A model generated the notes under the pieces. That model did not search any database, had not been told where the DNA came from, and saw nothing but the letters and a program-made list of their open reading frames with translations. Shown here piece after piece: positions 3,651 to 64,000 of a DNA stretch of 64,000 nt (its first letter is position 1; each line of letters opens with the position of its first letter). Origin of the DNA: an uncultured Roseovarius sp. (GTDB lineage: Bacteria > Pseudomonadota > Alphaproteobacteria > Rhodobacterales > Rhodobacteraceae); NCBI GenBank assembly GCA_951812895.1, contig OX638333.1, positions 4,480,619 through 4,544,618 of the forward strand. The letters are read 5' to 3'. The position numbers and the translations under genes are program-made.

Positions 3651-3961
3651 TAGGCCAACTCCAACCACATAAGTTTGTGTGTCGCCTCTCTCAGGTCCGT
3701 GTAAGCGCGTTTTTCGTCTCTGGTGTCGCCTCGGTCCTTAGCGTCTGCGTAGGCTTGCTGTGCGGCTTGTCTGGCGTATTTGAGGCGTGCGGGGGCCGTG
3801 CGGGCGTAATACTTGTTTGGGAAGCCACGTCGGGCCGCTGCTCGCGAGACAGACGCTATGGATACACCGATCTCACCAGCAATTTCCGAAAGGGGCTTTT
3901 CAGAGAACCAGTAAGCTTTAAACTGGTCTGTCTCGTAAAACGCATTGCGAGGCTTAAGCAT
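3650..3961 (-). CDS. Small HTH DNA-binding protein
   Basis: A 103-aa protein, not assigned to a named family. Residues 20-50 (SEKPLSEIAGEIGVSIASVSRAAARRGF) read as a helix-turn-helix of the kind found in resolvase-type or phage terminase-like regulators. The C-terminal half is charged and helical. It sits in the tightly packed early operon between the 57-aa gene and the adenine methyltransferase. Confidence 0.7.
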   Translation of the reverse strand: MLKPRNAFYETDQFKAYWFSEKPLSEIAGEIGVSIASVSRAAARRGFPNKYYARTAPARLKYARQAAQQAYADAKDRGDTRDEKRAYTDLREATHKLMWLELA

Positions 3962-3962
3962 G

Positions 3963-4136
3963 TCAGCCCTCCAGTTTGTGTGTGAAATTGAGTTGGCGGG
4001 CGCGGTTCAATAGTGCTGCACGCTCGCCGTAGAATTCTTGACGGTGCTTGCCTAATGATCCCCACCAGCCTTGTAGTTCTTCGCGGGGAAGGCATCGAAT
4101 GTGGGTTAGCTTTTGTTCGCGTTCTTCGGGGGTCAT
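3963..4136 (-). CDS. Small hypothetical protein, 57 aa
   Basis: It opens MTPEEREQKLTHIRCLPREE, is rich in charged and aromatic residues, and has no recognised domain. The ATG overlaps the cytosine methyltransferase stop by 4 bp (ATGA), and its TGA lies one base from the next ATG (TGACATG). This exact fit between two genes in the same operon is the main evidence that it is translated. Confidence 0.7.
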   Translation of the reverse strand: MTPEEREQKLTHIRCLPREELQGWWGSLGKHRQEFYGERAALLNRARQLNFTHKLEG

Positions 4137-7333: not shown

Positions 7334-8061
7334 TGTCCAAGTTTGACGTTCTCAAAAGATTTACTGGCGAAGTTCTTTTCACGGCTGAGTTGGACTGTGA
7401 CGACGATACACCAAGTTCCATAAGGCTAGGCCTTGCCGTTAAGTGGGGTGTTAAGAACAGAGCGAACCTCAACGGAGCGAACCTCGACGGAGCGAGCCTC
7501 TACAGAGCGAACCTCAACGGAGCGAACCTCGACGGAGCGAACCTCAACGGAGCGAACCTCGACGGAGCGAACCTCAACGGAGCGAACCTCGACGGAGCGA
7601 ACCTCAACGGAGCGAACCTCGACGGAGCGAACCTCAACGGAGCGAGCCTCTACAGAGCGAACCTCGACGGAGCGAGCCTCTACAGAGCGAACCTCAACGG
7701 AGCGAGCCTCTACAGAGCGAACCTCGACGGAGCGAGCCTCTACAGAGCGAACCTCAACGGAGCGAACCTCAACGGAGCGAGCCTCTACAGAGCGAGCCTC
7801 TACAGAGCGAGCGGAATCAACGAATACATCAAATGCATTCAGATAGATCAGTACCCGATCACCTACACCTCAGAGGTGATGCAGATCGGATGCCAAAGAC
7901 ATTTGATCGCGGAATGGCGTGGCTTTGACGATGAACGCATTGCGGGAATGGATGGCAAAAAAGCCCTGCGGTTCTGGCGCAAGTACAAAGATTGGATATT
8001 TCAAACGATTGATCTTTGCCCCGCGACACCCACGAAAAAAAACGAAGCGGACGCAGCATGA
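7333..8061 (+). CDS. Pentapeptide-repeat protein, long allele
   Basis: A 242-aa protein. Residues 1-43 form a non-repeat head, residues 44-158 hold 23 consecutive pentapeptides of three kinds ([15 protein letters not shown]) and a C-terminal domain follows ([18 protein letters not shown], then [10 protein letters not shown]). The A-x-L core residues predict a right-handed quadrilateral beta-helix; some family members mimic DNA and bind gyrase. The DNA repeats in nearly identical 15-base units, suggesting recent expansion. The second phage copy (53591) has lost residues 35-121. Its ATG overlaps the upstream TAA. Confidence 0.92.
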
Positions 8062-11249: not shown

Positions 11250-12422
11250 ATGACCAAAGAGCGAATTGAAGAACTAACCCCTGAGCAAGAGAAATATCTC
11301 CCGGTCTTTCGCGAGGAGTGGCTTCGAATTGGTCTGTCCACCAAGAACGTGGATAAAGACGCCTCAACTCACGCGGTTAAGCGGCTATACCAAGCAGGCG
11401 GGCTTGATGAGCCGCTGGTAATGCACTTCGACAGTCCGATGCAGTGCATTCTGGCAATTCATGTAATGCGCAGCCTTGGCGAAATTTCTGAGGCCAACCT
11501 CAGGGACAACCTCGGGGCCAACCTCGGGGCCAACCTCTGGGACAACCTCTGGGACAACCTCTGGGACAACCTCTGGGACAACCTCGGGGCCAACCTCTGG
11601 GACAACCTCAGGGACAACCTCTGGGACAACTTCGGGGACAACCTCAGGGCCAACCTCGGGGCCAACCTCTGGGCCAACCTCTGGGACAACCTCTGGGACA
11701 ACCTCTGGGCCAACCTCAGGGACAACCTCAGGGCCAACCTCTGGGACAACCTCGGGGACAGGGATTTGTATGTTCCCACGTACTTCTGGGGCAACTTAGA
11801 TGCCTACTGGATGGCATGGGCAGAGTTCGCGGAAAAGATTGGTGTTCCAATTGATAAAAAGGAACACTTTCACGCCTACATCGAATTTTCGAAGACCTCA
11901 GGCGTCAGTTATTTTTATCCGGGATTCGCGTTTGTCTCAGATAGACCAGACTTCATCGGCAAGGACGACCTGACCAGACTCCACTGTGAAACCGGGCCAG
12001 CGCTTTCGTTCCGCGACGGATATTCTGTTCACGCATGGCATGGGGTGAATGTTCCGGGCCATTGGATTGAAAACCCGCAGGAAGTCGATCCGGCTGAAAT
12101 CCTGAAATCCGAAAATGTTGAACAGCGGGCGGCGGGCGCGCAGATAATCGGGTGGCCTCGAATGGCCGAAAAGCTGGACCGCAAGATTATCGAAGGAGAC
12201 CCGGAAAGTGACGTTGGCGCTCTTGTTGAGTTCACGCTGCCGGGCCTGCCCGATCCCGGGCGGTTCCTCATGGCGAAATGCCCCAGAAACGGGATCATCT
12301 GCGAAGGTGTTCCTCGTGTGTCCGACATAGACGATCAACCAATAAGCACAGCGATTGCGGCGCAAGCATGGCGGGACTGCCTGCCGCAGGCTGAATACAT
12401 TCATCCCGCCATTCGCACATAG
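11250..12422 (+). CDS. Tetrapeptide-repeat protein with DUF6745-like domain
   Basis: A 390-aa protein. Residues 1-80 form a helical head. Residues 81-171 are about 22 tandem four-residue units of N-L-[WRG]-[DA], encoded by near-identical 12-base repeats. The remainder resembles DUF6745: YVPTYFWGNLDAYWMAWAEF, RLHCETGPALSFRDG, HAWHGVNVPGHWI and AGAQIIGWPRM. I recall similar short repeats before this domain in actinobacterial proteins. The function is unknown. The Leu periodicity of four differs from pentapeptide proteins, so another solenoid or amphipathic helix is likely. GGAG precedes the ATG. Confidence 0.75.
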   Translation: MTKERIEELTPEQEKYLPVFREEWLRIGLSTKNVDKDASTHAVKRLYQAGGLDEPLVMHFDSPMQCILAIHVMRSLGEISEANLRDNLGANLGANLWDNLWDNLWDNLWDNLGANLWDNLRDNLWDNFGDNLRANLGANLWANLWDNLWDNLWANLRDNLRANLWDNLGDRDLYVPTYFWGNLDAYWMAWAEFAEKIGVPIDKKEHFHAYIEFSKTSGVSYFYPGFAFVSDRPDFIGKDDLTRLHCETGPALSFRDGYSVHAWHGVNVPGHWIENPQEVDPAEILKSENVEQRAAGAQIIGWPRMAEKLDRKIIEGDPESDVGALVEFTLPGLPDPGRFLMAKCPRNGIICEGVPRVSDIDDQPISTAIAAQAWRDCLPQAEYIHPAIRT

Positions 12423-12822: not shown

Positions 12823-12865
12823 GGAAAGGAGAACGGATACGGAACATGAGGGCGGGGCGTCAAGG

Positions 12866-13114
12866 TTAAAACGGGTTTGATGACCACCAGCCATGCGCGG
12901 AAATTGCCAGTGCCAATACCGCGATCACGAGAGCGACGGTTGCTTTACGGTCCGCTAGGATATTCGAACGCCTGGTTAGTTCGCGCTCAGCCAAAAGCCG
13001 ATCAATCGAACCGGCTGGCCAAGTTGAAATGTACTGAATCAGATCGTCATCGGATAGTCGGCGTAGGGTTTCGGGCTTTCCGTCGGTCATATTGTAGAGT
13101 GTCGTCTCGGCCAT
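12866..13114 (-). CDS. Small membrane-anchored protein
   Basis: An 82-aa protein starting MAETTLYNMTDGKPETLRRL, with a C-terminal membrane helix (KATVALVIAVLALAISAHGW). AAGGAG six bases before the ATG at 13114 excludes the longer reading from 13147. It is the last gene of the leftward small-gene cluster. Function unknown. Confidence 0.65.
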   Translation of the reverse strand: MAETTLYNMTDGKPETLRRLSDDDLIQYISTWPAGSIDRLLAERELTRRSNILADRKATVALVIAVLALAISAHGWWSSNPF

Positions 13115-13155
13115 CCAGTTCTCCTTGTGTAAAACAAAGATAGGCATTCAAGCTG

Positions 13156-13353
13156 TCAGTTTCCACCTCCGCAATCAGGCTCCTGTTTGTTGCGCGATTC
13201 AAAATCTACACATTCGGTTTTCTTGAATGGGAACTGCTTGAGATTTGCTATTGCAGGGCGTCTTTTGCATTCGACCCATTCCGCCGTGATATAGTGATCA
13301 TCGCTGTCTTGATTCCATTCATAATGAACGCAGTCGGTGCAAGCATTGAACAT
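13156..13353 (-). CDS. Cys-rich small protein
   Basis: A 65-aa protein with Cys at CTDC near the N-terminus, then a central Cys and two more near the C-terminus (ECKRRP, TECVDFE), consistent with a zinc site or disulfides; no signal peptide. AAGGAGG lies eight bases before the ATG, inside the end of the upstream gene. Not recognised. Confidence 0.65.
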   Translation of the reverse strand: MFNACTDCVHYEWNQDSDDHYITAEWVECKRRPAIANLKQFPFKKTECVDFESRNKQEPDCGGGN

Positions 13354-13356
13354 CCC

Positions 13357-13689
13357 TCAGGCCTCCTTATTAGGCATTGCTTTCCCGCGAGCCTCACCCA
13401 ACTTTAGACGCTGCTCCAACCGCCAATTCACGTTCTTTACACAGGCCGCAAGATCAGCCTCGTAGAAGCCAAGGCGCTTTTGGCCAAGGAAGAACTCAGA
13501 GCCGCCGACGGTTAATCCAGTAAGCGTTTTGGTGATCTCAATTGCGTATCCGCGCAGCTTCTCGATCTCTCGCTTCTGTTGGTCGATCTTCATCTGTTTG
13601 ATCAGCAATTCGTCGGACGCCCTACCGCAGAGGTCGGCTATGTGCGTCTTAGGTCCGACCTCGGCCAGCAATTCATCTCGCAGTCCCAT
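13357..13689 (-). CDS. Coiled-coil hypothetical protein
   Basis: A 110-aa charged helical protein. Residues 28-55 (ELLIKQMKIDQQKREIEKLR) suit a coiled coil. No domain is recognised. It precedes the Cys-rich gene by three bases. Confidence 0.65.
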   Translation of the reverse strand: MGLRDELLAEVGPKTHIADLCGRASDELLIKQMKIDQQKREIEKLRGYAIEITKTLTGLTVGGSEFFLGQKRLGFYEADLAACVKNVNWRLEQRLKLGEARGKAMPNKEA

Positions 13690-13704
13690 TAGTCATGGCC
13701 TCCC

Positions 13705-13872
13705 TCATGTACCAATTTCTACTTCGTTTTTGCGTACCATTTTCGCGCCGCACTTAGGGCAACCACGACAGGCATTTGTGTAATGTCCACGCTTGACCGT
13801 ATGGCTGCACATCAGCTTTGTGCAGACGAACCAGAATTTAGGAACCCACGGTCTGCCGCGATACCCGCTCAT
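13705..13872 (-). CDS. Small zinc-ribbon protein, 55 aa
   Basis: It starts MSGYRGRPWVPKFWFVCTKL and has five cysteines, including CRGCPKCGAKM, which reads as a zinc ribbon. The leader GGAGACGATTTGATG is identical to that of the gene at 13886-14089. It may bind nucleic acid or a protein partner; function unknown. Confidence 0.65.
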   Translation of the reverse strand: MSGYRGRPWVPKFWFVCTKLMCSHTVKRGHYTNACRGCPKCGAKMVRKNEVEIGT

Positions 13873-13885
13873 CAAATCGTCTCCT

Positions 13886-14089
13886 TTATCGTGAGTTCGC
13901 GCGATCCCGGATCACACGATTTTGGTTTTCAATTTTGCGGTCAAAGACCAAAGGATCAACATCCCTCTCGCTAAAAACGAAAGGCAGCTTTCCCGGCTTG
14001 CGACACATGCAATAGCCGTCCGCGACAGCCAATACCTTTACGTCGCCACCATCGCCCGGATACGAGAACCAATCGCCACTCACTGCCAT
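13886..14089 (-). CDS. Small hypothetical protein, 67 aa
   Basis: It starts MAVSGDWFSYPGDGGDVKVL and contains CMCRKPGKLPFVF. No family is recognised. The Shine-Dalgarno in GGAGACGATTTG selects ATG 14089 over the in-frame TTG just upstream. Confidence 0.6.
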   Translation of the reverse strand: MAVSGDWFSYPGDGGDVKVLAVADGYCMCRKPGKLPFVFSERDVDPLVFDRKIENQNRVIRDRANSR

Positions 14090-14107
14090 CAAATCGTCTC
14101 CAATTAG

Positions 14108-14317
14108 TTAAGTTTGATTTCCATGCATGGCGTAGTGATCTGCTGCAGCTTTCAACACCTCAGACACCATGCGACGCCCTTCAGCTTTCTGTTCGTCCGA
14201 CATTCCATCGAAGTCCGGCAGAGGTTCACCTTGGGAGATAGAATAGTCTTCTGCACACCTCATAAGCGCCGCCTCGCCTGCATCAATCATGCCGGTTGTG
14301 ATCTTTATGCGTACCAA
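14108..14317 (-). CDS. Small hypothetical protein, 69 aa
   Basis: A helical acidic protein (MIDAGEAALMRCAEDYSISQ, ending AAADHYAMHGNQT). TTG at 14317 has GGGAG nine bases upstream; ATG at 14290 is the alternative but has no ribosome site. Phage proteins with a similar MRCAEDYSISQ-type helix are common, but the function is unknown. Confidence 0.6.
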   Translation of the reverse strand: MVRIKITTGMIDAGEAALMRCAEDYSISQGEPLPDFDGMSDEQKAEGRRMVSEVLKAAADHYAMHGNQT

Positions 14318-14336
14318 CGGTCATCGCTCCCTTGAA

Positions 14337-14579
14337 TCATATGTAGGCACCAGCATCTAGGCCATCCCAGACACGGTGCAGTTCATCAGCTTTGCCCGCT
14401 GCTATGAGGTCAACAGGCAGTTGGTTTGCAAGAAGCGGTTGAGGCAGGTTGAACCACTTAACCGCGTCCTCGAATTCGTAATATTCAGTGAGGCGCTTGA
14501 ACATGTCGACGGTTTCTTGAGACGCGCGGCGACGATCGTCCTCCATCGCTTGGTAAAGCTCATTGCGTATTTCACCCAT
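14337..14579 (-). CDS. DUF2384 (Xre/MbcA/ParS)-like antitoxin domain protein, orphan
   Basis: An 80-aa protein whose C-terminal half (AVKWFNLPQPLLANQLPVDLIAAGKADELHRVWDGLDAGAY) follows the toxin-binding domain pattern of Xre/MbcA/ParS antitoxins: a W-x-P-x-x-x-L start, an L-P-x-D-L-I helix and an L-x-x-G-x-Y end. No RES-type toxin lies beside it. It may act as an anti-toxin against host systems; that is inference. Confidence 0.55.
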   Translation of the reverse strand: MGEIRNELYQAMEDDRRRASQETVDMFKRLTEYYEFEDAVKWFNLPQPLLANQLPVDLIAAGKADELHRVWDGLDAGAYI

Positions 14580-14593
14580 AGCTCAGTCGCTCC

Positions 14594-14707
14594 TTATTGA
14601 TGTTCAGCCCAATCCATTAGGCGGTCGCCAGTCTTGAACAAAACGAACCCGATCCAATGAACCAGCCTAGCAATTCCGAGGCGCTTTGGTCGCGTGTACG
14701 GTGACAT
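14594..14707 (-). CDS. Tiny hypothetical protein, 37 aa
   Basis: MSPYTRPKRLGIARLVHWIG then FVLFKTGDRLMDWAEHQ: a basic N-terminus and an amphipathic or membrane-associated helix. GGGAGACGTCTTG precedes the ATG, similar to leaders of its neighbours. The AAGGAG used by the next gene follows its stop. Confidence 0.55.
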   Translation of the reverse strand: MSPYTRPKRLGIARLVHWIGFVLFKTGDRLMDWAEHQ

Positions 14708-14737
14708 CAAGACGTCTCCCTTTAGCAAGCACAAAGT

Positions 14738-14920
14738 TCATTTATAAAACCAGCCATACGGCCTCGCAGACTCACTGCCGTACGGAAATGGCAATTCAAC
14801 CCGTTTCGGGGCCGATGGTAGATCATCCAGAAAGTCAAGATCGCCGAAGGCCGCTTTAGCCTTCTTTCCAATCTCCTCCAACTTCTTTGCGAGATCCTCG
14901 TTGTTTTGTGTATTGCTCAT
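14738..14920 (-). CDS. Small acidic/helical protein, 60 aa
   Basis: MSNTQNNEDLAKKLEEIGKK starts a helical protein with an acidic middle (FGDLDFLDDLP) and aromatic C-terminus. AGGAGGG precedes the ATG. It is the first gene of the leftward small-gene cluster; its upstream region is interrupted by the transposon, which may have displaced the original promoter. Confidence 0.65.
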   Translation of the reverse strand: MSNTQNNEDLAKKLEEIGKKAKAAFGDLDFLDDLPSAPKRVELPFPYGSESARPYGWFYK

Positions 14921-14998
14921 GCTACCCTCCTAAGGCCAAGTTTAGAGTGTATGTACGATCTAATGTCCATCTTTCTAAAGGGAATTATATGAATTATA

Positions 14999-15014
14999 TA
15001 TACGATAGTGCCCA
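14999..15014 (+). repeat. Transposon left inverted repeat
   Basis: TATACGATAGTGCCCA; the exact complement lies at 17545-17560. It is followed directly by AGATCT, the site cut by BglII itself. Confidence 0.85.
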
Positions 15015-15020
15015 GATCTC

Positions 15021-15191
15021 TCAAGTTTCTTCGTCTTCAGGTTCTTGTCGGGTTGCACCGCCTTTCATGACTGCCTTTATCAACCTCTCCGGTTTTACCG
15101 GTACACTTATGTCCTTGTTCATATCGGCTTTTGTTGGCTGGTAACTCCGGTCCATGACCTTGTTATAGTAGTCAGACTTCTGTTTGGTCAT
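15021..15191 (-). CDS. Small passenger protein, 56 aa
   Basis: It starts MTKQKSDYYNKVMDRSYQPT and ends GGATRQEPEDEET, charged throughout, with no HTH and no recognised family. GGAG six bases before ATG 15191 supports the start. It overlaps the endonuclease end by 20 bp and stops seven bases from the left inverted repeat, so it moves with the transposon. It is not an obvious controller protein. Confidence 0.6.
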   Translation of the reverse strand: MTKQKSDYYNKVMDRSYQPTKADMNKDISVPVKPERLIKAVMKGGATRQEPEDEET

Positions 15192-15870
15192 CGCTTTCTC
15201 CAATGCATTCCTGCGTGATCCCGATTGCCAAGACGGGACAACCGCCATTGCGTCCTGCGTCCAATCTGTAAAGCAATTTGCCCATCCATGTTGTTGATGC
15301 TCCAAACTTCTTATACACGTATTCGCTGCCTTGGGTTCCATCCTTGTTCAAAACCTTCCCAAGACTCCGAAAGAACTCATTGTCCAGCGAGGAACCGCGT
15401 GTCAGTATAACACCAACGTCGATTGCGCCAGCATCATAGAAGGCTGAAAACGCATACAGGTCTCTATCATAAGTCTGGTCTTTGCTATTCCACTCGAAGT
15501 CAAGTGCGACTTTCCCGGAAACAAAATCAATCCTGTGACCATCTAGAAAACCTTTTTTGACGTATTTGTGAAGAATATTTCCAATTTGCTTCGCATGTTC
15601 CAACCGGACCAGAAGATCAGCGGAAATGCGGGTTTCTATCCAGTCGGGCAACGGGAATAGCGTATCCACATATTGGGCGATTGGCCCCTTGCTGCCGCCC
15701 GGTCTCCTTATCATCTCCGTTGTGATCTCAAACGTTTCCAAAGCATCTGTCACATGTGAGAACTGATCAGGAAAACTGTTGGCCAGAATGGACGCTGCGT
15801 TCCTATAACTGTGAATTTCAAACTTCTGCCTGACGTTTTTCGAGAACAAATGTCTCTCGCCTTCTGACAT
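15172..15870 (-). CDS. BglII/BstYI-family type II restriction endonuclease
   Basis: A 232-aa endonuclease. The catalytic region is visible as HRIDFVSGKVALDFEWNSKD (about 112-131), with Asp115 and Glu126-x-Asn128 as likely metal and water ligands, followed by the family signature YDRDLYAFSAFYDAGAIDVG and VILTR. BglII cuts AGATCT and BstYI cuts RGATCY, so a GATC-centred target is likely. It lies two bases after the MT-A70 gene, its presumed protective partner, inside the transposon. No truncation is visible, so it is probably active. Confidence 0.85.
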   Translation of the reverse strand: MSEGERHLFSKNVRQKFEIHSYRNAASILANSFPDQFSHVTDALETFEITTEMIRRPGGSKGPIAQYVDTLFPLPDWIETRISADLLVRLEHAKQIGNILHKYVKKGFLDGHRIDFVSGKVALDFEWNSKDQTYDRDLYAFSAFYDAGAIDVGVILTRGSSLDNEFFRSLGKVLNKDGTQGSEYVYKKFGASTTWMGKLLYRLDAGRNGGCPVLAIGITQECIGESDDQTEV

Positions 15871-15872
15871 GC

Positions 15873-16508
15873 CTATTCCGCCGCAACTGACGAATTGTAT
15901 TTATACGTGTCCCATGTCGGCTTATAGTCATCGCCCGCCTGGTTGCCCCAGACCGTCCAGTTTTCACGGCACCCGCGCCCGAACAATTCCAGGTATGGTC
16001 CCCAGCTGCAACTTTCGATGATATCATACTGTTCATCCGGTTTACGGGAATGCTCCCGCTTGCGCGTCCCGAACAGATTGACCTGTCGCCGCCCGGGTTG
16101 AAGTGTGCGCGCGTTTTTTCCACGTATCCCGAACAACAGGACTTCGGTGACGTTTCGGAAGTAAAACCCAACACCCCGCCCATCAGAGCCACCATCCTTG
16201 CGGACCTTGTGCCAGATGATGTTTGACTTGTAAGCAAAGCCCCACTTGGTCATGACCTGTAATCCCTCAGGGAGCAAAGCATTTGGAACCCAAAGGTAAC
16301 AATGCGCCCGATCTTCGACAAAATCTGAAACGGGAAGAGTGCATATGTCTTCAAGCGTCATTGTCGGATATCTGGCAAGACGTTTATGTTCAGGGGCCAT
16401 TTTTCCTGTCCGGTTGGCAAAGCGCCAAGGTGGATCGGCCATGATTGTTGAAAACTTTTCAGACCCGAGAAATTGAGAAAGATCATTCGCGACGCTTGAA
16501 TCACTCAT
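15873..16508 (-). CDS. MT-A70 family N6-adenine methyltransferase
   Basis: A 211-aa enzyme with DPPW at 25-28 (motif IV), the family segment YLWVPNALLPEGLQVMTKWG, the FRNVTEVLLFGIRGK turn and a late ENWTVWGNQ. It is predicted to methylate adenine and protect the site cut by the adjacent endonuclease. Its ATG overlaps the transposase stop by 4 bp, so methyltransferase is made first from the transposase transcript, the safe order for a restriction system entering a new cell. Confidence 0.9.
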   Translation of the reverse strand: MSDSSVANDLSQFLGSEKFSTIMADPPWRFANRTGKMAPEHKRLARYPTMTLEDICTLPVSDFVEDRAHCYLWVPNALLPEGLQVMTKWGFAYKSNIIWHKVRKDGGSDGRGVGFYFRNVTEVLLFGIRGKNARTLQPGRRQVNLFGTRKREHSRKPDEQYDIIESCSWGPYLELFGRGCRENWTVWGNQAGDDYKPTWDTYKYNSSVAAE

Positions 16509-17482
16509 GACCGCGCTCCGCTTGCCAAACCGTTGTCTGCAATCAAATCAACGTAGCGAAGGCGCTTGCCCTCCATGCCAGTAACCACGCCTGACATTTG
16601 GTCGATGGTGTTTTGCGGACGGACATTGTGACGGCCTGAGAACTCATTCACATAACGGTTCAGGTGCTTGGGGCTCATTTTGTGGAACGTGCCCTTGTGA
16701 GCGCGTTTGAGCGGTGCCCAGAAGCTTTCCAGACCGTTGATGTGAGCTTGTTCCCGAACATACTCACCAACGGAATGGCGAACTGCCTCGTGCGTCCTGT
16801 TGATCCCCTTATAAGCGCTGGCATCATCTGTGTAGACGGCCGCGCACTCGGTGGTGTGGTCAATGACAAAGCCTTGCAGCGTCTTCGACGTGGTGTCCCG
16901 TACGACCTTGGCAATAACCTGATTGGTTTCCCGATCCTTCACGCCAGCGACGATGGCTTTGCCAACGCCGCCGCGCCCGGCATTCAACTTCTTGCCCTTG
17001 TGCTTATTCTTTTCGAGTCCGCCGATGTAGGTTTCGTCGGCTTCCACCGGGCCACCAAAGGGCAGTGCAACACCATCATCCTCAAGCGCTTTGCGCACCC
17101 GGTGCGCCAAATGCCAAGCGGCTTTCTGGGTAATCTCCAGATCGCGATGCAACTTCATAGACGAAACACCCTTGAGGCTGGTGGTCATGAGGTAAATCGC
17201 AATTGCCCAGACCTGATAACCGAGATTGGACGCTTCCATGCACGTCCCAGTGCGAACTGAAAATCGCTTGCGGCATTCCTTCTCACGGCAACGGTAGGGC
17301 ATGGTCTTGTGTGCCGCCCCGGACAGCACGCTGGTCGATCCGCAATGTGGACAGTGAGGACCATCGGCCCAGCGTTCCTCGGTAAACCACTTCTCGGCGG
17401 CTTCGTCGGTGGGGAATATCTTGAACAGCTTTACGAGGCTGATACCTTCACGATAGTGCTTACCGGGTGCTTTCTGTGCCAT
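16505..17482 (-). CDS. IS1595-family transposase
   Basis: A 325-aa transposase. An N-terminal zinc ribbon (CPHCGST near 45, then YRCREKECRKRFSV) precedes an HTH-like region and the DDE core: VEADETYIGGLEKNKHKGKK with the first Asp, AVYTDDASAYKGI with the second, and HINGLESFWAPLKRAHKGTF with the Glu. This is the ISXO2/IS1595 pattern. Intact length and motifs suggest activity. A second partial end sequence (TGGGCACTAT at 17501) lies just upstream of the gene and may be a transposase binding site. Confidence 0.93.
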   Translation of the reverse strand: MAQKAPGKHYREGISLVKLFKIFPTDEAAEKWFTEERWADGPHCPHCGSTSVLSGAAHKTMPYRCREKECRKRFSVRTGTCMEASNLGYQVWAIAIYLMTTSLKGVSSMKLHRDLEITQKAAWHLAHRVRKALEDDGVALPFGGPVEADETYIGGLEKNKHKGKKLNAGRGGVGKAIVAGVKDRETNQVIAKVVRDTTSKTLQGFVIDHTTECAAVYTDDASAYKGINRTHEAVRHSVGEYVREQAHINGLESFWAPLKRAHKGTFHKMSPKHLNRYVNEFSGRHNVRPQNTIDQMSGVVTGMEGKRLRYVDLIADNGLASGARS

Positions 17483-17544
17483 GTGTATCTCCCTTGATCT
17501 TGGGCACTATTGAATCACCTATGGTCTAGGGCGTCAAGCCCTTT

Positions 17545-17560
17545 TGGGCACTATCGTATA
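17545..17560 (+). repeat. Transposon right inverted repeat
   Basis: TGGGCACTATCGTATA, the exact complement of 14999-15014; the match extends outward to 17570. Its first ten bases recur in the same orientation at 17501-17510. Confidence 0.85.
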
Positions 17561-17581
17561 TAATTCCCTTCGATTGACTGA

Positions 17582-18736
17582 TCAATTGCTGTGTTTAATA
17601 GACTCTTCTTGCGTGTCATGTGGTTGATTCCTTTCGTCCACTAGGTTGCGCAAGTGGGCGGCTGCTCTCCAAAGTAGGCCGTCCACTTCTTCCCGATATC
17701 GGGGAAGCACTTTGTCACCGACTTGCTCCTTGGTAAGTGCAGTGATCCATTTCAAATTATCCAATAGGTCCAACGTTACACCCGAAATCTCGCGGCGAGA
17801 TTCTTGCTTTTCCTTACTCCAAGGGTGATGGAGCACCTCACCTGTAGACGTGTCCGTGTAGGTCATTTGAGGATCGGGAGGTTCAAACCCTTCCTTGGTA
17901 TAGCCACCCGTTTCGTTGCGGACGTAACCCGGTTTTGCACTGCCGATGTTTGCGGTGTTCTGGGTGTAGGTCGTACCGTTGCGGGTGACCTTTCGCTTCG
18001 GCTTATCTTCCAACGGTTGGAAGATATTATCTGTGTTTGGAACACAGATAGCTTTTCGCACATCACCCACAAATTTGTTTCCAACACGACACTGGCGGGC
18101 GATTTCCCGGTCTGACCACTGCGCCCACTCCGGGTCATTCAATAGGCGGCTAACAGCCTGTCTCTTGTCCTCATTGGTTCGGCGCGCACCATGTGCGGCA
18201 TTGGCTCCGACAGAATAAAGTACAGCATTCCGCAACGAGCCTTGCCGAACATCTGCATTGATCATCGCGCGCGTGATCTGGTCGATTGGTACATCAAGCC
18301 ATTCACCGTCCTTACCGGCATGATTTTGCAGGGTGGACAGGTAGTCGTAGACGGTGTTGGCCGTTTTCTCTTTGGTGCGTGGGTCAACACGTTCGGTTGT
18401 GTGCCTGAGAAATGCCTGTCTAAGGCTGATCTCCTTGGCTTGGGTAACAACAGGGGCAGGCAAGGCGTGCGTCGCATCAGCGACCCGCTCAGACATCGTG
18501 TCTGCCGCCTGCGCGGCTGAGTGCAGGTTCATGGCAGGCCATTTTCCAAGTGTTTTGGATTTTGTTTTGCCATGCGCAAATTTGACCAGACGCCAAGTTT
18601 TGGTTTTTGTGCCGACGTCTAAATACAGGTTTGGGAAGACGCCTTTGCGCTGGTCAGCATAACGGTTTGTGCCGGACTTCGAAAACGGCAGTTTGTCGAT
18701 ACTGCCTTCGGTGAACTTGATACGTTGGGTTGCCAT
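17582..18736 (-). CDS. Chimera: integrase N-terminus fused to ParB-like C-terminus
   Basis: A 384-aa protein. Residues 1-165 match a phage tyrosine integrase N-terminus: arm-binding part (RYADQRKGVFPNLYLDVG, KTWRLV, TLGKWPAMNL) and core-binding helices (ANTVYDYLSTLQNHAG). From about 167 (LRNAVLYSVGANAAHGARRT, then WSDREIARQCRVGNKFVG, then YTQNTANIG) it matches the C-terminal half of phage ParB-like proteins. No R-H-R-H-Y catalytic domain is present, so recombinase activity is not expected. GGAGG before ATG 18736 sets the start. The fusion is one open frame. It lies beside the attachment core, where an integrase belongs. Confidence 0.8.
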   Translation of the reverse strand: MATQRIKFTEGSIDKLPFSKSGTNRYADQRKGVFPNLYLDVGTKTKTWRLVKFAHGKTKSKTLGKWPAMNLHSAAQAADTMSERVADATHALPAPVVTQAKEISLRQAFLRHTTERVDPRTKEKTANTVYDYLSTLQNHAGKDGEWLDVPIDQITRAMINADVRQGSLRNAVLYSVGANAAHGARRTNEDKRQAVSRLLNDPEWAQWSDREIARQCRVGNKFVGDVRKAICVPNTDNIFQPLEDKPKRKVTRNGTTYTQNTANIGSAKPGYVRNETGGYTKEGFEPPDPQMTYTDTSTGEVLHHPWSKEKQESRREISGVTLDLLDNLKWITALTKEQVGDKVLPRYREEVDGLLWRAAAHLRNLVDERNQPHDTQEESIKHSN

Positions 18737-18864
18737 GGAGGCCTCCATTTTTGCAATTATTTTGCAATTTTCGTATCAACCACCACCGGGTCTGCTCAAC
18801 CGAAGTGTCTGTATTTATTAGGTAAAAGCAACATAAGCCACCGTCAGCAACCCAATTTTCCCGT

Positions 18865-18910
18865 ATTTGTAATCAGTAGGTCCGCGGTTCGAGTCCGTGT
18901 GGGGGCACCA
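18865..18910 (+). other. Attachment core: 3' half of tRNA-Thr(UGU)
   Basis: The 46 bases run from the anticodon loop (ATTTGTAATCAG) through a complete T-arm (CGCGG TTCGAGT CCGTG) to the acceptor end TGGGGGCACCA. The 5' half of a tRNA is absent, so this is not a functional tRNA but a phage attachment site that would restore the 3' end of a host tRNA-Thr after insertion. It is 129 bp from the integrase-like gene. It corresponds to attP, or to the internal junction of tandem prophages. Confidence 0.8.
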
Positions 18911-19066
18911 TTTCAACCGATTGATATTAAATGACAAAGTGAGCGCTCAGCCGTTCGCATTAGTGTGTATTTTCAAACGTTTTTCAAACACACCGAAGAA
19001 TCGAATAATGGTACCATGTTTAGCGATATTCCGCATCGTTCAAAGGAATGGCCACTAAATATGGTT

Positions 19067-19108
19067 GGTGAATTGGGTTGGTTTGCGCTAAAACGCAGAT
19101 AGTTCACC
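19067..19108. repeat. Nested inverted repeat upstream of methyltransferase
   Basis: GGTGAA/TTCACC encloses TGCG/CGCA. It is 50 bases before the methyltransferase gene and could be an operator or hairpin. The rest of 18911-19157 shows no gene. Confidence 0.4.
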
Positions 19109-19157
19109 ACTAACAAACTTGGGAACGTAATAAGAAGACGAAACAGAGGCGGGTATA

Positions 19158-20747
19158 ATGAACTTCATCGCGTTAGAATCAGAACAGAAGCTACGCGGTG
19201 GATACTACACGCCTGCCGACCTCGCTAATTTCTTAACCCGATGGATAGCTCCGAGCGCCGGAACCCGCGTGCTTGAACCAAGCTGCGGAGATGGCGCATT
19301 TTTCCCAACGCTTGATGGATCTGACGCAACAGTTACGGCATTCGAACTATCGCCAGAAGAAGCTGCAAAGGCTTCGGCGCGTGGTCTGCCGGATTGTACC
19401 GTTCACAATCGAGATTTCTTAAGTTGGGCGCTGGCAGCGGAACGCGGCCAGTTCGATGCGGTCATCGGCAACCCACCGTTTGTCAAGTACCAGTATCTCC
19501 CGGCGGACTTCCAAGCCAACGCTGAACGTGTGTTTGCGCGTCTCGGCTGCAAATTCACGAAACACACTAATGCATGGGTTCCTTTCATTCTCGCGTCGAT
19601 GGACCTGCTGCGCCCCGGTGGGCGGCTAGCGATGGTGGTTCCGTCCGAGATCGTGCACGTTATGCACGCGCAATCCTTGCGAACCTATCTCGGACAGCAA
19701 TGTCGCCGCATAGTGATCGTAGACCCTCAAGAAATCTGGTTCGAAGGCACCTTGCAGGGCGCGGTCCTGCTGATGGCCGAGAAGAAGGCTGCGCCTGATG
19801 TCCACGGCGAAGGGCTAGGCATTCACCGCGTAGCCGGTCGCGACTTCCTACGCGAAGACCCAGAAGCAGTTTTCAACACACCCCGAGCGATCAACGGAAA
19901 GACTGTTCAAGGCAAGTGGACACGCGCACTGGTGCCCACCGCGACTCTATCCACCCTCGAAGCCTTAGAAGAAGATTCCAGATTCTGCCGCTTCGACGAT
20001 GCCGCTAAAGTGGACGTGGGCATAGTCACGGGTGCCAACAAGTTTTTCCTCGTCACAGACGACGTTGTGCGACAGAACGGACTGGAAAAGTGGGCGCATC
20101 CAATGTTTGGGCGCAGCGACCATTGCCCCGGAGTGATCTATGATAACGCGCAGCACGCCCGCAATGCGGCTACAGGCAAGCCTACGAACTTCCTGTGGCT
20201 CGACAGTTCGGTTATGGATAGTGCCAAAGGTCGCGCTTACATCGCTTCGGGCGAACACGAAAAGCTCCACGAGCGATATAAATGCCGTATCCGAAAGCCG
20301 TGGTACACGGTGCCTTCGGTGCACGCTACCGAGGTTGGAATGCTCAAGCGCAGCCACAACACGCCCCGCCTAATTCATAATCGTGTCGGGGCCTACACAA
20401 CCGATACCGCCTATCGCATTCGTGCCCTTCGCGGTACAGCGGATGCTTTGGTTTATGGCTTCTACAACAGCCTGACCGCCCTCAGCGCGGAACTGGAAGG
20501 GCGTCACTATGGCGGTGGTGTTTTAGAGCTGGTGCCCAGCGAAATTGAGAAGCTGCTGTTACCTGCACCCGAAGGCATCTCCCCAAATGTTGAGAAATTG
20601 GACCGTATGGTGCGCGAAGATTCTGTGGCGGACACGCTGGAAGTGCAATCAGAAGATGTGCTTGGTGCTCTGACTAAGGCTGAACAGATGGACCTGCTTG
20701 CCGCTTGGGCTACTCTACGCGACCGCCGCCACCGAATTCCTTCTTAG
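19158..20747 (+). CDS. Type II gamma-class N6-adenine DNA methyltransferase
   Basis: A 529-aa enzyme. GGYYTPADLANFLTRW at the N-terminus, motif I LEPSCGDGAF (about 37-46) and motif IV NPPFVKYQY (about 105) place it with Eco57I/PstI/PaeR7I-type gamma methyltransferases, which carry a C-terminal recognition domain; the length is usual for this group. It is transcribed towards the att-distal side and is convergent with the fragment at 20744, its likely former partner. It is an accessory gene at the phage end. Recognition sequence unknown. Confidence 0.9.
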   Translation: MNFIALESEQKLRGGYYTPADLANFLTRWIAPSAGTRVLEPSCGDGAFFPTLDGSDATVTAFELSPEEAAKASARGLPDCTVHNRDFLSWALAAERGQFDAVIGNPPFVKYQYLPADFQANAERVFARLGCKFTKHTNAWVPFILASMDLLRPGGRLAMVVPSEIVHVMHAQSLRTYLGQQCRRIVIVDPQEIWFEGTLQGAVLLMAEKKAAPDVHGEGLGIHRVAGRDFLREDPEAVFNTPRAINGKTVQGKWTRALVPTATLSTLEALEEDSRFCRFDDAAKVDVGIVTGANKFFLVTDDVVRQNGLEKWAHPMFGRSDHCPGVIYDNAQHARNAATGKPTNFLWLDSSVMDSAKGRAYIASGEHEKLHERYKCRIRKPWYTVPSVHATEVGMLKRSHNTPRLIHNRVGAYTTDTAYRIRALRGTADALVYGFYNSLTALSAELEGRHYGGGVLELVPSEIEKLLLPAPEGISPNVEKLDRMVREDSVADTLEVQSEDVLGALTKAEQMDLLAAWATLRDRRHRIPS

Positions 20748-21188
20748 TCGATTTCCAAAGTGAAGCGCGAAGGATCTTCGTTTTCGCGGAACAGTTTCAG
20801 CACGCGATCCAGCAAATCCTCTTTAGCAACGAGCGGTTTGGCATCGCCCCAGTGTAAGCCGGTCATGCTGTTGCGCTGCCGGTAGGAAGCTGTGTCAGTC
20901 CGCGTATTGTGCGAGAGGTGCATAGTGTGGACTCCGTAATCCACGTCTTTCACGATTAGTCGAATCTGCGCCTCTGCCCGTTCAATGTGGGCCCGTGCGG
21001 GAGCAGCGTCAGGTTCCCAGTCCAACGCCGCAAACACTTCGTCTCGGAAATAGTGTCGTTGGTCGATACCTTCCATTGCGCCAACACCTAGAAGCATAGA
21101 GCCAGTGGGGCTGGTGTTCGCGCCAGTGGGAATGTTCAAGTGGCGACGGGTCAGACCATTGCTTAGTATCGCAGAAATCGCGACATAG
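20744..21188 (-). pseudogene. Truncated restriction-endonuclease-like fragment
   Basis: The frame reads YVAISAILSNGLTRRHLNIP, then HMHLSH-like and TGLHWGDAKPLVAKEDLLDR, ending RFTLEID. The last segment resembles the C-terminal DNA-binding part of some type II endonucleases, but I cannot name a family. No start codon with a ribosome site fits the fragment; the frame continues to 21250 only by running antisense-free through another lysis gene's end in a different frame. It overlaps the methyltransferase stop by 4 bp, the usual convergent layout of R-M pairs. Probably the 3' end of a gene cut when the accessory module joined the lysis cassette. Confidence 0.5.
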
Positions 21189-23884: not shown

Positions 23885-24883
23885 TCACAGAACGACGACG
23901 ATACATTTACCCGATCCACCGGCGGCACCAAACCCTCCACCACCGCTGGGGGTAGACCCCGCGGATGATGAAGCACCACCATTCCCCGCATGAAGCGAAG
24001 CGCCACCGGAAGTGTACCCACCACCGCCACCGCCATAGATCGCAGCGCCACCGTTAAAGTGCCTAACGCGATGATCCCTCGTATCCATACCAGCAGCGCC
24101 ACCAAAGATGCTGGACGCATCCGCACCAGGGCTGGAACCACCCCCAATGCTGCCCCCGGCTTCTCTCGCTCCGGCCGCGAGTTCTCCGCCCCCACCGCCA
24201 AAGATATTGAGGAACCCCGGTCCACCGCCATAGGCCGTGACCAAAGATCCGAATGTCGTGTTGCCACCCGCAACACCAGCAGCACCCCCCGCACCGATTG
24301 TTACGGAGTACGAACTCGACAGATCGCCTGCCCGTGCCAGATATTCGCTGAATGCGCCGCCACCGCCGCCGGATGCAGTACCACCACCGCCGCCGCCACC
24401 CCAACACTGGATGAGAACGGCTCTGTCGGCGTTTAGACCGACCGGTTTGTTCCAGGTTCCGCTTTCGGTAAACACCTGATGATCGAAGACTGTCGAGTTG
24501 CTGTTGCCTCCGCCTGATAAGACGTAGAATTTGTTCGAGTGGTAGAGAAGTAAATCGTAGCCGTCCTGAACCAGGTCCCCGGATGCAAGCGCCGATCCAT
24601 CGTTCTTTACGATGGATTTAGCCCCTACGCTGTCGATATTGAGCGTTTCAGATGAGCCCGTGTTCGCGTTCGGCCATTTGATCGTGAAGTGCATCCCGTC
24701 AACGAGATTGTCAGCATCGAAATCCGGGTCTACATCCGCGGTGTAAGTATCGGTTCCGGCCGCACTGGTCAGATGCAGCGTTGAGGCGTCAAAGAGGATC
24801 TTCAACAGATCATCGTACTGGCCCATGAAATCATCGCCTGCGACGGATGTGGAAGTCTCGTTGTATCGGGTACGTGTTGCCAT
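23885..24883 (-). CDS. Glycine-rich tail fibre / adhesin
   Basis: A 332-aa protein. Residues 1-130 form an N-terminal attachment part (ATRTRYNETSTSVAGDDFMG), then a TFTESGTW-like strand (FTESGTWNKP) leads to a 180-residue C-terminal domain made largely of Gly runs (CWGGGGGGGTASGGGGGAFS). Poly-glycine sandwich domains of this kind form receptor-binding tips in tail fibres. Directly downstream of the J-like gene and coupled to it (TGATG), it probably decides host range. Confidence 0.8.
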   Translation of the reverse strand: MATRTRYNETSTSVAGDDFMGQYDDLLKILFDASTLHLTSAAGTDTYTADVDPDFDADNLVDGMHFTIKWPNANTGSSETLNIDSVGAKSIVKNDGSALASGDLVQDGYDLLLYHSNKFYVLSGGGNSNSTVFDHQVFTESGTWNKPVGLNADRAVLIQCWGGGGGGGTASGGGGGAFSEYLARAGDLSSSYSVTIGAGGAAGVAGGNTTFGSLVTAYGGGPGFLNIFGGGGGELAAGAREAGGSIGGGSSPGADASSIFGGAAGMDTRDHRVRHFNGGAAIYGGGGGGYTSGGASLHAGNGGASSSAGSTPSGGGGFGAAGGSGKCIVVVL

Positions 24884-27558
24884 CAGGTCCAAAGCTCCGG
24901 TGCTTCATCGACACAAGTCAGGGTGAACTGCAGATCGGAACGCGACTGCATCCCCACCACGATCATGCGTCGGGTTTCTTCATTCAAAGGGCCAACCGCT
25001 GCGAGAATTCCTTCGTCGAGCCCGGTTGCAGAAACGGGTGCGGCAAACTCAAGCCAATCGGTCTCGCCGGTCGTTCCGGTCAAAGTGTGCGTGGTGCGGG
25101 TGTTGTTCGTGCGGTTCAAAATAACGCCGGTCTTGGCTCCGATGAGAGCCACGTCAGTTTCGGTTTCCAGATTGGTCACATCTTCGAAGTAGTCCTCGAA
25201 ATACACCTTCACCTTGTCGTCCAGACGGATGCGCGTCACGTCTCCGTCGTTGTCTGTTTCAAAGTCCACAATTCGGCCCTGGCCCATACGGCCTGTCATC
25301 ATGTCATGCGTGAGCCCGATCAATGAACCCCTGCGGCAGACAATTGCTGAAGATGGGGCTTCAAAAGACCAGAACGCACCACGCAACTTGGCGCTTTCAA
25401 GATCGTAAGCCACACGCTCTTCTACTTCGGCCACAGTGACCAGAGGGTCGAATGTGACCTGCTCCACCCGTGCCGATCCCTCGTTTTTTGGGTCCGGCCA
25501 GACGGTGATTTGTCTGCGTTCGTAACTTCGGTCTCGGTCCTCGAATGTGGCTCGCATCCCGTGTGGCAGCATTGGGAAGGCCTTTTCCCATCGCACATCC
25601 GCGGCGTTTCTTGGCGTAAACAACTGCACAGGTGTTTCGGCGGACCGGTCATAGTCCCGAATTACGCCCCAGATTTCACTTTCATAGGGTCGGGCATACC
25701 CCGCGGATGCAATGACGCGCGTCACGTCTTTGACAGACTCACCCTCGAAAATCGCGTTGGCCTCATAGCCCGCCGATGCACAAGCGGTGCGCCATGACAC
25801 CAAACCGTCATCATCGACAATGGCTTCGGGCACAGGGTCGGCGTTCAACATACCCGCAATCACATCGCGGTAATGTGGGGCCGGATTCGACGAAGTCACC
25901 CAATCGACCCAACCCGATCCGTCCCAATCCTGTGTGTAGCCGGACGCAACAACGCTTAAGTTCTCAACCGACTTGTTGCGAGCCCGGATCGCAATGAGGG
26001 CCAAACCGTCCCGGGCAACCGGTGCTTCGTTACGAATGCTGACACCGCGGGCTAAGATCACGTTGTTGGCGATCCCGTCCTGATCTTCCTGTATCTCAGG
26101 TCCCACACCAGTCTGATACCAGAATGGATCCTTAACAGCGCCACCGATGGTGTAATTCGTGTCTGAATATTGTGCTGATCGGATTGCGTATCCGCGCTTA
26201 ATCTCTATCTCATAGCGACCCTTTGGGAATGTAGCCGTGTCGAGGTAAATCTTGGCCTCGTAGCGATCCATGCGAACGTTCTGGATTTTGGTCGATCCGA
26301 GATTGTCCTTGTCCATCCAGTCATCGGAACCGCTGCCCTTGTCGAAGTCACCATGTGAGGTGTATGCGACAGACGAGGGTGCCGCCGTCTGTTCCTTGGT
26401 GGCGATACGCGCCTCGACCCACCCCTTCGCCTCTGACGCCGCTTCTGTTACCGACGGGCTGTCCTGCCAGATAAGCTGGATCGTCGCACGCTGTTCCGAG
26501 ATATCGGCAGCTTCGTAGTGCAGTTCCGGCAAGTTGGTCCAAGTGGTTTCACCTGCAGGGCGAATGCGGAGCCGAAACGGGATACGAATCAACTCTGTAT
26601 CGGATGCCTTGCGGTGCAAGCCTTGCGGCATAACGATCTGCAACCATGCTTCGTCGGGGGATTCCCTGGTGGCGTATTGCAGAGGTTGGGGAAGCGCGTC
26701 GTCGAAGCTGCCCGTCGCACTCTCAAGAACCGTACCGTCGTCGCCGCTGACCGTTTGCCCGACCAAATCGGAGCGCAGGAGTTCCGTGCGTGTCTGACGG
26801 GTAACCAATGTAAGTTTTGGGTCACCGGCCCAACCTTCGCGCGTCTCAAATTCAACACCGGACATATCGCCGATGGCCGCATCTTTGATCTCAATGTCCA
26901 CCAGTTGGTGCGGGCCTGCCAGACCGACCACGACTTCAACCACCTCGTCGAAGCCGGAGAAATAAGTGAATGGCTCGGCCAGAAACGGCGGGTAGACTTT
27001 ACGAGTTCCCACAACGCGCGGGATCGAACCGTTTTGGCTCAGAACGTTCCCCTGGGCCGCTGCGGAACCGCGTTGTTCGGGCTTCGGGCCTTCTGGCGCC
27101 GGATCGAGTGTTGGGGTGCCAACAAGTCCACTGATCAGCGTTGCACCGGAAAAACCAACAACGCCGGCCAAGGCATTTGCGAGAACAACGTTTCCCGCCG
27201 TAAGGCCACCCAGAATAGTACCGGAAGCGATACCACCTGTGACGGCCGTAAGTGCAATCGCCGCCACAATGGCGAGCGGGTTCTTTTCGCCGCCACCACC
27301 CATAGGGGGCGCGTGGAACGTCACCTCAACCCTTGTGCCGTTGGCTAACTTGGCTTTCGGTGTCACGAGATGCCAGGCACCGCGCGGAACGACCTCGTTT
27401 TGTACGCATATCACATCATGCTCATGCCGGGGCCAGCCCTTGGGCAGGCTTTTGACCAGGGCCACCATTTCGGCCAATGTGGTGCGTTCCGATAGATAAT
27501 AGGTATGCGGCGCGAGCGACAACATCGGCTCGCGGTGGACCGCCATGATCTTAGACAT
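24883..27558 (-). CDS. Tail tip / host-specificity protein J-like
   Basis: An 891-aa central tail-fibre protein. An N-terminal ubiquitin-like part precedes a hydrophobic Gly/Ala-rich segment (about 100-150), then the J hub region (GSIPRVVGTRKVYPPFLAEP) and several beta-rich domains including one with VRWEKAFPMLPHGMRATFED. It follows NlpC/P60 and DUF1833 genes in the lambda-like order, and is shorter than lambda J. Confidence 0.85.
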   Translation of the reverse strand: MSKIMAVHREPMLSLAPHTYYLSERTTLAEMVALVKSLPKGWPRHEHDVICVQNEVVPRGAWHLVTPKAKLANGTRVEVTFHAPPMGGGGEKNPLAIVAAIALTAVTGGIASGTILGGLTAGNVVLANALAGVVGFSGATLISGLVGTPTLDPAPEGPKPEQRGSAAAQGNVLSQNGSIPRVVGTRKVYPPFLAEPFTYFSGFDEVVEVVVGLAGPHQLVDIEIKDAAIGDMSGVEFETREGWAGDPKLTLVTRQTRTELLRSDLVGQTVSGDDGTVLESATGSFDDALPQPLQYATRESPDEAWLQIVMPQGLHRKASDTELIRIPFRLRIRPAGETTWTNLPELHYEAADISEQRATIQLIWQDSPSVTEAASEAKGWVEARIATKEQTAAPSSVAYTSHGDFDKGSGSDDWMDKDNLGSTKIQNVRMDRYEAKIYLDTATFPKGRYEIEIKRGYAIRSAQYSDTNYTIGGAVKDPFWYQTGVGPEIQEDQDGIANNVILARGVSIRNEAPVARDGLALIAIRARNKSVENLSVVASGYTQDWDGSGWVDWVTSSNPAPHYRDVIAGMLNADPVPEAIVDDDGLVSWRTACASAGYEANAIFEGESVKDVTRVIASAGYARPYESEIWGVIRDYDRSAETPVQLFTPRNAADVRWEKAFPMLPHGMRATFEDRDRSYERRQITVWPDPKNEGSARVEQVTFDPLVTVAEVEERVAYDLESAKLRGAFWSFEAPSSAIVCRRGSLIGLTHDMMTGRMGQGRIVDFETDNDGDVTRIRLDDKVKVYFEDYFEDVTNLETETDVALIGAKTGVILNRTNNTRTTHTLTGTTGETDWLEFAAPVSATGLDEGILAAVGPLNEETRRMIVVGMQSRSDLQFTLTCVDEAPELWT

Positions 27559-63479: not shown

Positions 63480-63578
63480 GTGTATCTCCCTTGATCTTGG
63501 GCACTATTGAATCACCTATGGTCTAGGGCGTCAAGCCCTTTTGGGCACTATCGTATATAATTCCCTTCGATTGACTGA

Positions 63579-64000
63579 TCAATTGCTGTGTTTAATAGAC
63601 TCTTCTTGCGTGTCATGTGGTTGATTCCTTTCGTCCACTAGGTTGCGCAAGTGGGCGGCTGCTCTCCAAAGTAGGCCGTCCACTTCTTCCCGATATCGGG
63701 GAAGCACTTTGTCACCGACTTGCTCCTTGGTAAGTGCAGTGATCCATTTCAAATTATCCAATAGGTCCAACGTTACACCCGAAATCTCGCGGCGAGATTC
63801 TTGCTTTTCCTTACTCCAAGGGTGATGGAGCACCTCACCTGTAGACGTGTCCGTGTAGGTCATTTGAGGATCGGGAGGTTCAAACCCTTCCTTGGTATAG
63901 CCACCCGTTTCGTTGCGGACGTAACCCGGTTTTGCACTGCCGATGTTTGCGGTGTTCTGGGTGTAGGTCGTACCGTTGCGGGTGACCTTTCGCTTCGGCT
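63579..64000 (-). CDS. Integrase-ParB chimera, C-terminal part, cut by window end
   Basis: The last 140 codons of the gene seen complete at 17582-18736, all from the ParB-like half. The fusion joint itself would lie about 240 bp beyond the window. Confidence 0.8.
   Translation of the reverse strand, partial: PKRKVTRNGTTYTQNTANIGSAKPGYVRNETGGYTKEGFEPPDPQMTYTDTSTGEVLHHPWSKEKQESRREISGVTLDLLDNLKWITALTKEQVGDKVLPRYREEVDGLLWRAAAHLRNLVDERNQPHDTQEESIKHSN

Follow-up and report, generated by a model that had tools for sequence, protein, structure and literature searches.

The DNA analysed here (the window, 64,000 nucleotides, C1:4480619-4544618) is the terminal 64 kb of a genome assembled as one contig of 4,544,618 bp; positions on the contig carry the prefix C1 below, and bare two-dot ranges refer to the window. 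Its minus strand holds a gene (17582..18748, ATG at 18748, stop at 17582) for a 388-aa fusion protein, in which residues 1 to ~162 are the arm- and core-binding part of a tyrosine integrase, int2, and residues ~162-388 are the distal part of a ParB-like phage protein. A sequence-only reading of the window had described an integrase N-terminus fused in frame to a ParB-like C-terminus, and we confirm this description: both halves are identical to intact genes, and the first contains the arm-binding domain PF13356 (residues 29-91, 30.1 bits against a Pfam cut-off of 27). The open frame is intact, as had been stated, but it comprises 388 codons rather than the 384 counted from 18736, a difference of start-codon choice. 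The joint, placed earlier near 18238, is real and lies ~20 bases away, at 18255-18263.

Besides PF13356, the fusion has no other Pfam match at 0.01, and the catalytic domain PF00589, which scores 57.2 bits in intact int2 in the same comparison, is absent; a PHROGs search of the whole fusion returned no match at 0.001. The fusion thus resembles the Arm-DNA-bind_3 tyrosine integrases (PF13356 plus PF00589) in residues 1 to ~162, in its start region and in its att core, all identical to int2, and differs from them in that the catalytic domain is gone. Because that domain is absent, the fusion cannot be a recombinase and is unable to cut or join DNA. None of the genome's 15 PF00589 and 2 PF00239 places falls within the 64-kb window, in agreement with the earlier statement that no catalytic recombinase domain remains there; a serine recombinase (PF00239) as a replacement within the window was dropped on the same result. 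On the other side of the joint, the sequence shared with the ParB-like parent begins at residue 74 of its 300 and retains the distal 227 residues. The ParB N-terminal domain is missing from the fusion, and the stretch DGFHR, which we take to be the ParB nucleotide motif, precedes the joint in the parent. Hence, from residue ~162 onward the fusion equals the distal 227 residues of a phage ParB-like partition protein (PHROG 1033) carried by array units A and A' (described below), but unlike such proteins it has no N-terminal ParB domain with its DGFHR stretch. The putative ParB-type helix-turn-helix stretch (residues 191-230) is the best-modelled part of the predicted structure, with pLDDT block means of 82-87, and is identical in sequence to the intact parent, even though the whole fusion has no PHROG match. 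The predicted structure as a whole has a mean pLDDT of 49.7, and its integrase half is poorly modelled.

Both parent genes persist in the same genome. The int2 parent is an intact 402-aa tyrosine integrase (C1:4197217-4198425) in a tRNA-Thr island, and the int2 piece of the fusion with its start region and att core (18255..18910, minus strand) is identical at 656/656 bp to the right end of that island, sat2 (C1:4197055-). The ParB-like distal piece (17569..18263, minus strand) is identical at 695/695 bp to C1:14503-15197 and to C1:61895-62589. Its parent is an intact 300-aa gene (C1:14516-15418, with a second copy at C1:61911-62810) that adjoins a tape-measure-like gene in the A-type prophage units; it matches PHROG 1033, the ParB-like partition proteins, at 3.8e-15 and has no Pfam match at 0.01. 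The two pieces meet at GATCAATGC (18255..18263, minus strand), 9 bp common to both parents that are read in frame as codons 162-165. At a random joint, at least 9 shared bp would be expected with a chance of ~3e-5 under equal base frequencies. An in-frame joint is a 1-in-3 event, so selection is not required to account for it. A deletion between neighbouring integrase and parB genes of one phage was considered and rejected, the parents lying in the island at 4.197 Mb and beside the A-unit tape-measure-like gene.

The fusion belongs to a hybrid segment of 8339 bp, HS1 (12826..21164), that lies between phage bodies. HS1 is identical at 8339/8339 bp to HS3 (C1:44001-52339). Window positions 12826-18910 are identical at 6085/6085 bp to C1:92528-98612, one half of HS4, and 18895-21164 are identical at 2270/2270 bp both to C1:136860-139129, also a half of HS4, and to C1:2678-4947. 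The assembly holds three complete copies of the fusion and one cut by the contig end, the ParB-like piece of which is seen at 63566..64000 (minus strand). The frame is intact in 3/3 complete copies; since the copies are identical, this is uninformative on selection. Read on the minus strand from the att core, the segment comprises the int2 piece, the ParB piece, a transposon with a whole left tip, and phage early DNA. The att core CCGTGTGGGGGCACCA (18895..18910, plus strand) is the 3' end of tRNA-Thr, and identity to the tRNA continues for 29 bases, to ~18866. The core lies ~147 bp upstream of the fusion start, and no clear set of arm-site repeats was found near it.

Across the core lies the left end of the island sat1 (18895..21164, plus strand; 1 difference in 2270 bp). 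It brings an intact Eco57I-type DNA methyltransferase of 529 aa (19158..20747, plus strand) and the truncated end of a PLD-like, putative restriction nuclease (20744..21164, minus strand) that is whole, at 379 aa, in sat1; the truncated frame extends to 21250 with an unrelated start. Here sat1 DNA meets the phage body at GACCATTGCTT (21154..21164), 11 bp common to both parents, and the joint cuts the nuclease while leaving the neighbouring methyltransferase whole. The left border of the segment is AAGGAGAACGG (12826..12836), a sequence resembling a ribosome-binding site that also flanks, on both sides, the int-att region of the prophage at the array end, P. Past this sequence P enters its own int-att region, whereas the hybrid segment enters early DNA. 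Because AAGGAGAACGG resembles a ribosome-binding site, we regard the left border as a boundary between modules and leave it out of the evidence for microhomology. All four cut pieces of the segment have whole counterparts elsewhere in the genome at 99.9-100% identity, so that the joints can be read base by base in one chromosome. With int2, att core and methyltransferase in this order, the right end of sat2 abuts the left end of sat1. This is the order expected if sat1 and sat2 had excised as one circle, and a separate island with both ends would fit equally. Window positions 14725-14996, beside the trimmed transposon end, have no counterpart in the genome outside the segment copies, and positions 13185-13869 have none in the stretches compared, the left end of P included; hence that joint is unproven and the segment is partly unexplained. 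A comparison of the segment DNA with a phage collection gave no near match.

The transposon within the segment (14997..17568, minus strand) is of the IS1595 family and carries a type II restriction-modification (RM) pair. It encodes an IS1595-type transposase of 325 aa (16505..17482; PF12762, 126.6 bits), an MT-A70 DNA methyltransferase of 211 aa (15873..16508; 101.6 bits) and a BglII-type restriction endonuclease of 232 aa (15172..15870; 130.7 bits), all on the minus strand. Two further copies of 2578 bp, T1 and T2 (C1:2021561-2024138 and C1:1007827-1010404), have exact 24-bp ends and are flanked by the 8-bp target duplications CAAAATTG and AAATGAAT. The window copy is identical to T1 over 2572 bp. 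Its tip is intact at the ParB side, where the ParB piece terminates exactly at the transposon tip; its far end is 6 bp short, and there is no target duplication. The trimmed far end and the missing duplication indicate that this end of the transposon was probably rearranged after insertion. In its transposase, inverted repeats, 8-bp duplications and passenger genes, the element is like the IS1595 transposons with passengers described in passages of PMC5704250; it differs from those in that the passenger is a whole type II RM pair of MT-A70 methylase and BglII-type nuclease. Titles, the opening lines of abstracts and passages of one review mention no RM passenger in IS1595 elements. In 32 other genomes with a match to the BglII-type gene, none of the 14 loci examined has a transposase within ~1.5 kb. 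A diverged second transposon was seen in another genome (locus L166, ~2358-4941; G201, contig 1), with the same order of transposase, MT-A70 and BglII-type genes (50, 71 and 29% identical, respectively) and with matching inverted ends and TTTCATTT at both sides; it is the sole such transposon among 24 of the 26 transposase places in other genomes, those examined.

The islands that hold the whole counterparts of int2 and of the methyltransferase region follow tRNA-Thr (c4227366-4227441). Three of them, sat1, sat2 and sat3, stand in tandem at ~15 kb each, span C1:4182426-4227441 and are bordered by att cores at 4227366, 4212581, 4197055 and 4182426. The 405-aa integrase of sat1 scores 22.1 bits for PF00589, under the cut-off of 27.1, and matches a PHROG integrase family at 5.8e-26; sat1 also has a primase and a terminase-like gene and, at its tRNA end, the Eco57I-type methyltransferase and the 379-aa protein, whose weak PLD-like match (24.1 bits) is below the cut-off. 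In sat2, int2 is accompanied by a terminase-like gene and by a gene for a 790-aa protein related to the sat1 primase at 44% identity. The island sat3 carries two methyltransferases and an NgoFVII-type nuclease. The restriction-type genes found at an end of sat1 differ from those at an end of sat3. Ten further island proteins, five each from sat1 and sat2, included no capsid or tail protein. These islands are like the phage satellites with defence genes described in PMC9122126 in their tandem ~15-kb arrangement at tRNA-Thr, in the integrase, primase and terminase-like genes of sat1, in the integrase, terminase-like gene and primase relative of sat2, and in the restriction-type genes of sat1 and sat3; calling them satellites expresses a likeness. 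Separately, an AAA ATPase gene of sat2 matches defence models, and the 16-bp att core occurs once more as an exact copy outside the arrays, at C1:3467405-3467420, with no tRNA gene found within the surrounding 11 kb.

The phage bodies on either side of the hybrid segment belong to a tandem prophage array at tRNA-Val, of which the window covers a part. We delimited its units by att cores and compared 180 kb of the contig start with 144 kb of the contig end. The array lies between 53-bp direct repeats (C1:4448222-4448274 and C1:180003-180055), the latter inside tRNA-Val (c180004-180079) except for its first base, and spans both contig ends over at least 276 kb (C1:4448222-end plus C1:1-180055). 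Beside the tRNA-Val repeat and outside the window lies an intact 334-aa integrase (C1:178946-179950; PF00589, 69.8 bits), so that the wider element does contain a complete integrase, a finding that the sequence-only reading had itself named as refuting its view. A 230-kb chromosomal inversion as the cause of the array edges was dropped, the 53-bp repeats and the 334-aa integrase explaining both edges. Three unit types, A, B and C, make up the array. At the contig start, the units run A (C1:2678-50085), A' (50070-98612), C (98597-136875) and B (from 136860); at the contig end, B' ends and B'' starts at C1:4499513. The window repeats itself with a period of ~46.0 kb, and this period and the core spacing give P-type units of ~46.0-48.5 kb. 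Among the genes of the phage bodies are those for tail, head and portal proteins, the tape measure, the terminase and a DnaB-type helicase. Unit C represents another phage: it encodes a terminase, a major head protein, a tape measure protein and a separate 363-aa integrase, and it lies within the attThr core, which therefore probably served as a target inside the array.

Identity between the left end of P and the segment is 98.6% over 359 bp and 99.4-99.8% over 638 and 853 bp, with the stretches differently arranged and a duplication present. By these alignments, P is a relative of the units' parent rather than the direct parent, and an int-att region may consequently have been lost or gained in either direction. 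Of the 86 alignment positions at which B' and B'' differ, 41 fall within C1:4458346-4458752 and 10 within 4460947-4461543, both in tail genes; a tandem repeat (4488052-4488182) accounts for a further 33, and 2 lie elsewhere. Over 31 kb, B' and B show 12 differences, which are confined to 4486637-4486699. This clustering suggests real variants rather than read errors. The unit order comes from a single assembly, with a contig that stops within the array; because the contig is unclosed and its end does not run into its start, both the order and the number of units are provisional.

We looked for the same fusion in other genomes, as had been proposed earlier, and found it only in the window's own: 1 of 84 genomes of the genus, with all candidates scored, and 1 of 394 genomes of the family, with at most four candidates scored in each genome listed. 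Matches in the other genomes cover one half only: those on the integrase side are 25-47% identical and extend no further than residue 186, and those on the ParB side, seen in three genomes, are 42-55% identical. A peptide-pattern search of 84,980 species genomes matched nine stretches, one of which is a relative: an intact 398-aa integrase of Amylibacter ulvae, 91% identical over residues 2-168. It adjoins a 790-aa gene that is 43% identical to the sat1 primase and thus stands in an island arrangement. In viral contigs, three stretches fit the int2 pattern and one fit the fusion pattern, with no relative among either. Two of 50,697 phage records match the fusion, both in the ParB half only. 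In all 33 viral ParB relatives the match begins at residues 1-8 of the ParB-like protein, and each therefore has the N-terminal domain; against the three integrases tested they gave no match better than E 0.89 and no fusion. In two of the 33 (L103 and L104), a separate stretch resembling the integrase of phage P (22.6% identical) lies ~5 kb from the ParB gene, and one (L081) has 351 residues ahead of the ParB match. At the level of literature listings, we found no paper on an integrase-ParB fusion.

We consider it likely that the fusion is a recent recombination scar at the edge of island DNA captured by a tandem prophage. The pieces, their whole counterparts, the joints and the copies can be read directly in the assembly, and the direction of change is one that we infer from which pieces are cut and which are whole. 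In this account, a temperate siphophage of the P type came to hold the 8.3-kb hybrid segment where its relative P has its own integrase-attP region. Phage, island and transposon DNA would have been joined illegitimately at 9 and 11 bp of shared sequence, in an order of events that we infer, perhaps by an annealing recombinase of the phage; a passage of PMC2327257 gives 5-13 bp as the length on which RecET acts. The 9-bp joint would have been in frame by chance, giving a 388-aa frame in which the arm- and core-binding part of int2 is retained together with the putative ParB-type helix-turn-helix. Phage copies bearing the segment would then have piled up in tandem at tRNA-Val, and the copies could recombine via the phage body or via the attThr core with an integrase supplied in trans. 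The intact cargo (methyltransferase, restriction pair and att site) may be selected, with the fusion as its passenger. The likeliest selected cargo would be the sat1 methyltransferase, which could protect the phage from the sat1 nuclease, or else the restriction pair of the transposon. The fusion itself is probably not under selection and appears to lack a function. The sequence-only reading had proposed that a deletion joined two neighbouring genes and grounded the prophage. Two genes were indeed joined, by illegitimate recombination in our account, and the product has no catalytic domain. Neither an origin from neighbouring genes nor a grounding of the prophage is supported: the parents lie in a tRNA-Thr island and in the A units, and the array keeps its intact 334-aa integrase.

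The position of the att core and the int2 arm at the border of phage-sized units (46.0-48.5 kb), together with the part of the segment that has neither an island nor a P counterpart, would also fit a history in which an int2-type integrase acting at tRNA-Thr originally served the P' phages themselves and is shared by the islands, and in which the fusion is the phage's own integrase broken by a transposon-linked rearrangement. We regard this as unlikely, given that the DNA across the core is a sat1 end with a truncated island nuclease, that P, the related prophage, integrates at tRNA-Val with another integrase, and that the one close int2 relative found outside this genome, in Amylibacter ulvae, stands in an island arrangement. 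An artefact, with the assembler having built the joint or the whole array out of a number of similar phages and islands, is very unlikely: the contig is unclosed with both ends inside the array and the segment copies are identical, as an artefact might leave them, but the parents share just 9 bp at the joint, far under any assembler overlap, the fusion occurs in three units with different neighbours (A, A' and B'), the 86 differences between B' and B'' are clustered, and on each side the array has one host flank, with att repeats that match.

A functional reading deserves separate weight, since the sequence-only reading had offered a new maintenance role for the hybrid. The fusion might be a working DNA-binding protein whose int2-derived part covers the arm and core sites of attThr, blocks int2 in trans and holds the islands and prophage copies in place, while its ParB part would contribute DNA binding or self-association. 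The identity of the binding half and the start region to intact int2, the att core close upstream of the fusion start, the frame kept open in three complete copies and the well-modelled helix-turn-helix stretch of the predicted structure are compatible with such a role. Nonetheless, we find it very unlikely and do not uphold the proposed maintenance role: the ParB N-terminal domain has been cut away, the integrase half is poorly modelled, the in-frame joint requires no selection, and the fusion is found in none of the relatives searched. In particular, a natural dominant-negative integrase acting on the attThr arm and core sites, its ParB half binding DNA or self-associating, is highly unlikely; if such a protein did exist, a phage with captured island DNA would lock in place both its own tandem copies and the islands of this family.

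Read as a recombination scar, the segment is like the phage mosaicism by illegitimate or relaxed recombination described in passages of PMC2327257, in which modules of different source meet at very short shared sequences. It is unlike the mosaicism described there in that whole counterparts of the cut pieces persist alongside them in one genome and in that an integrated island is among the sources. Phage mosaics formed by illegitimate recombination are already known; what is unusual here is the survival of the whole counterparts in one genome, the capture of an att site and a methyltransferase from an island, and a joint that happens to form an open fused gene. Phage mosaicism appears to have been caught very early in this chromosome. 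A phage carrying an island att site and the whole methyltransferase of a restriction-type pair suggests an escape route from island-encoded restriction. The locus also calls for caution in interpretation, as a conspicuous gene fusion can turn out to be a scar, and a window cutting through a tandem array is no basis for calling a prophage grounded.

Three further features of the phage bodies were noted in the window. A tandem repeat inside a phage gene (window 7456-7812 and 53689-53809) differs in copy number between units by ~240 bp, giving frames of 242 versus 155 aa. In the tail genes around window 23885-24892, a glycine-rich gene that ends the tail cluster is where B' and B'' differ most, with 41 of the 86 positions, and it resembles a variable tail tip. 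Finally, a 390-aa protein (window 11250-12422) contains many pentapeptide-like repeats of the DNLWDNLRANL type.
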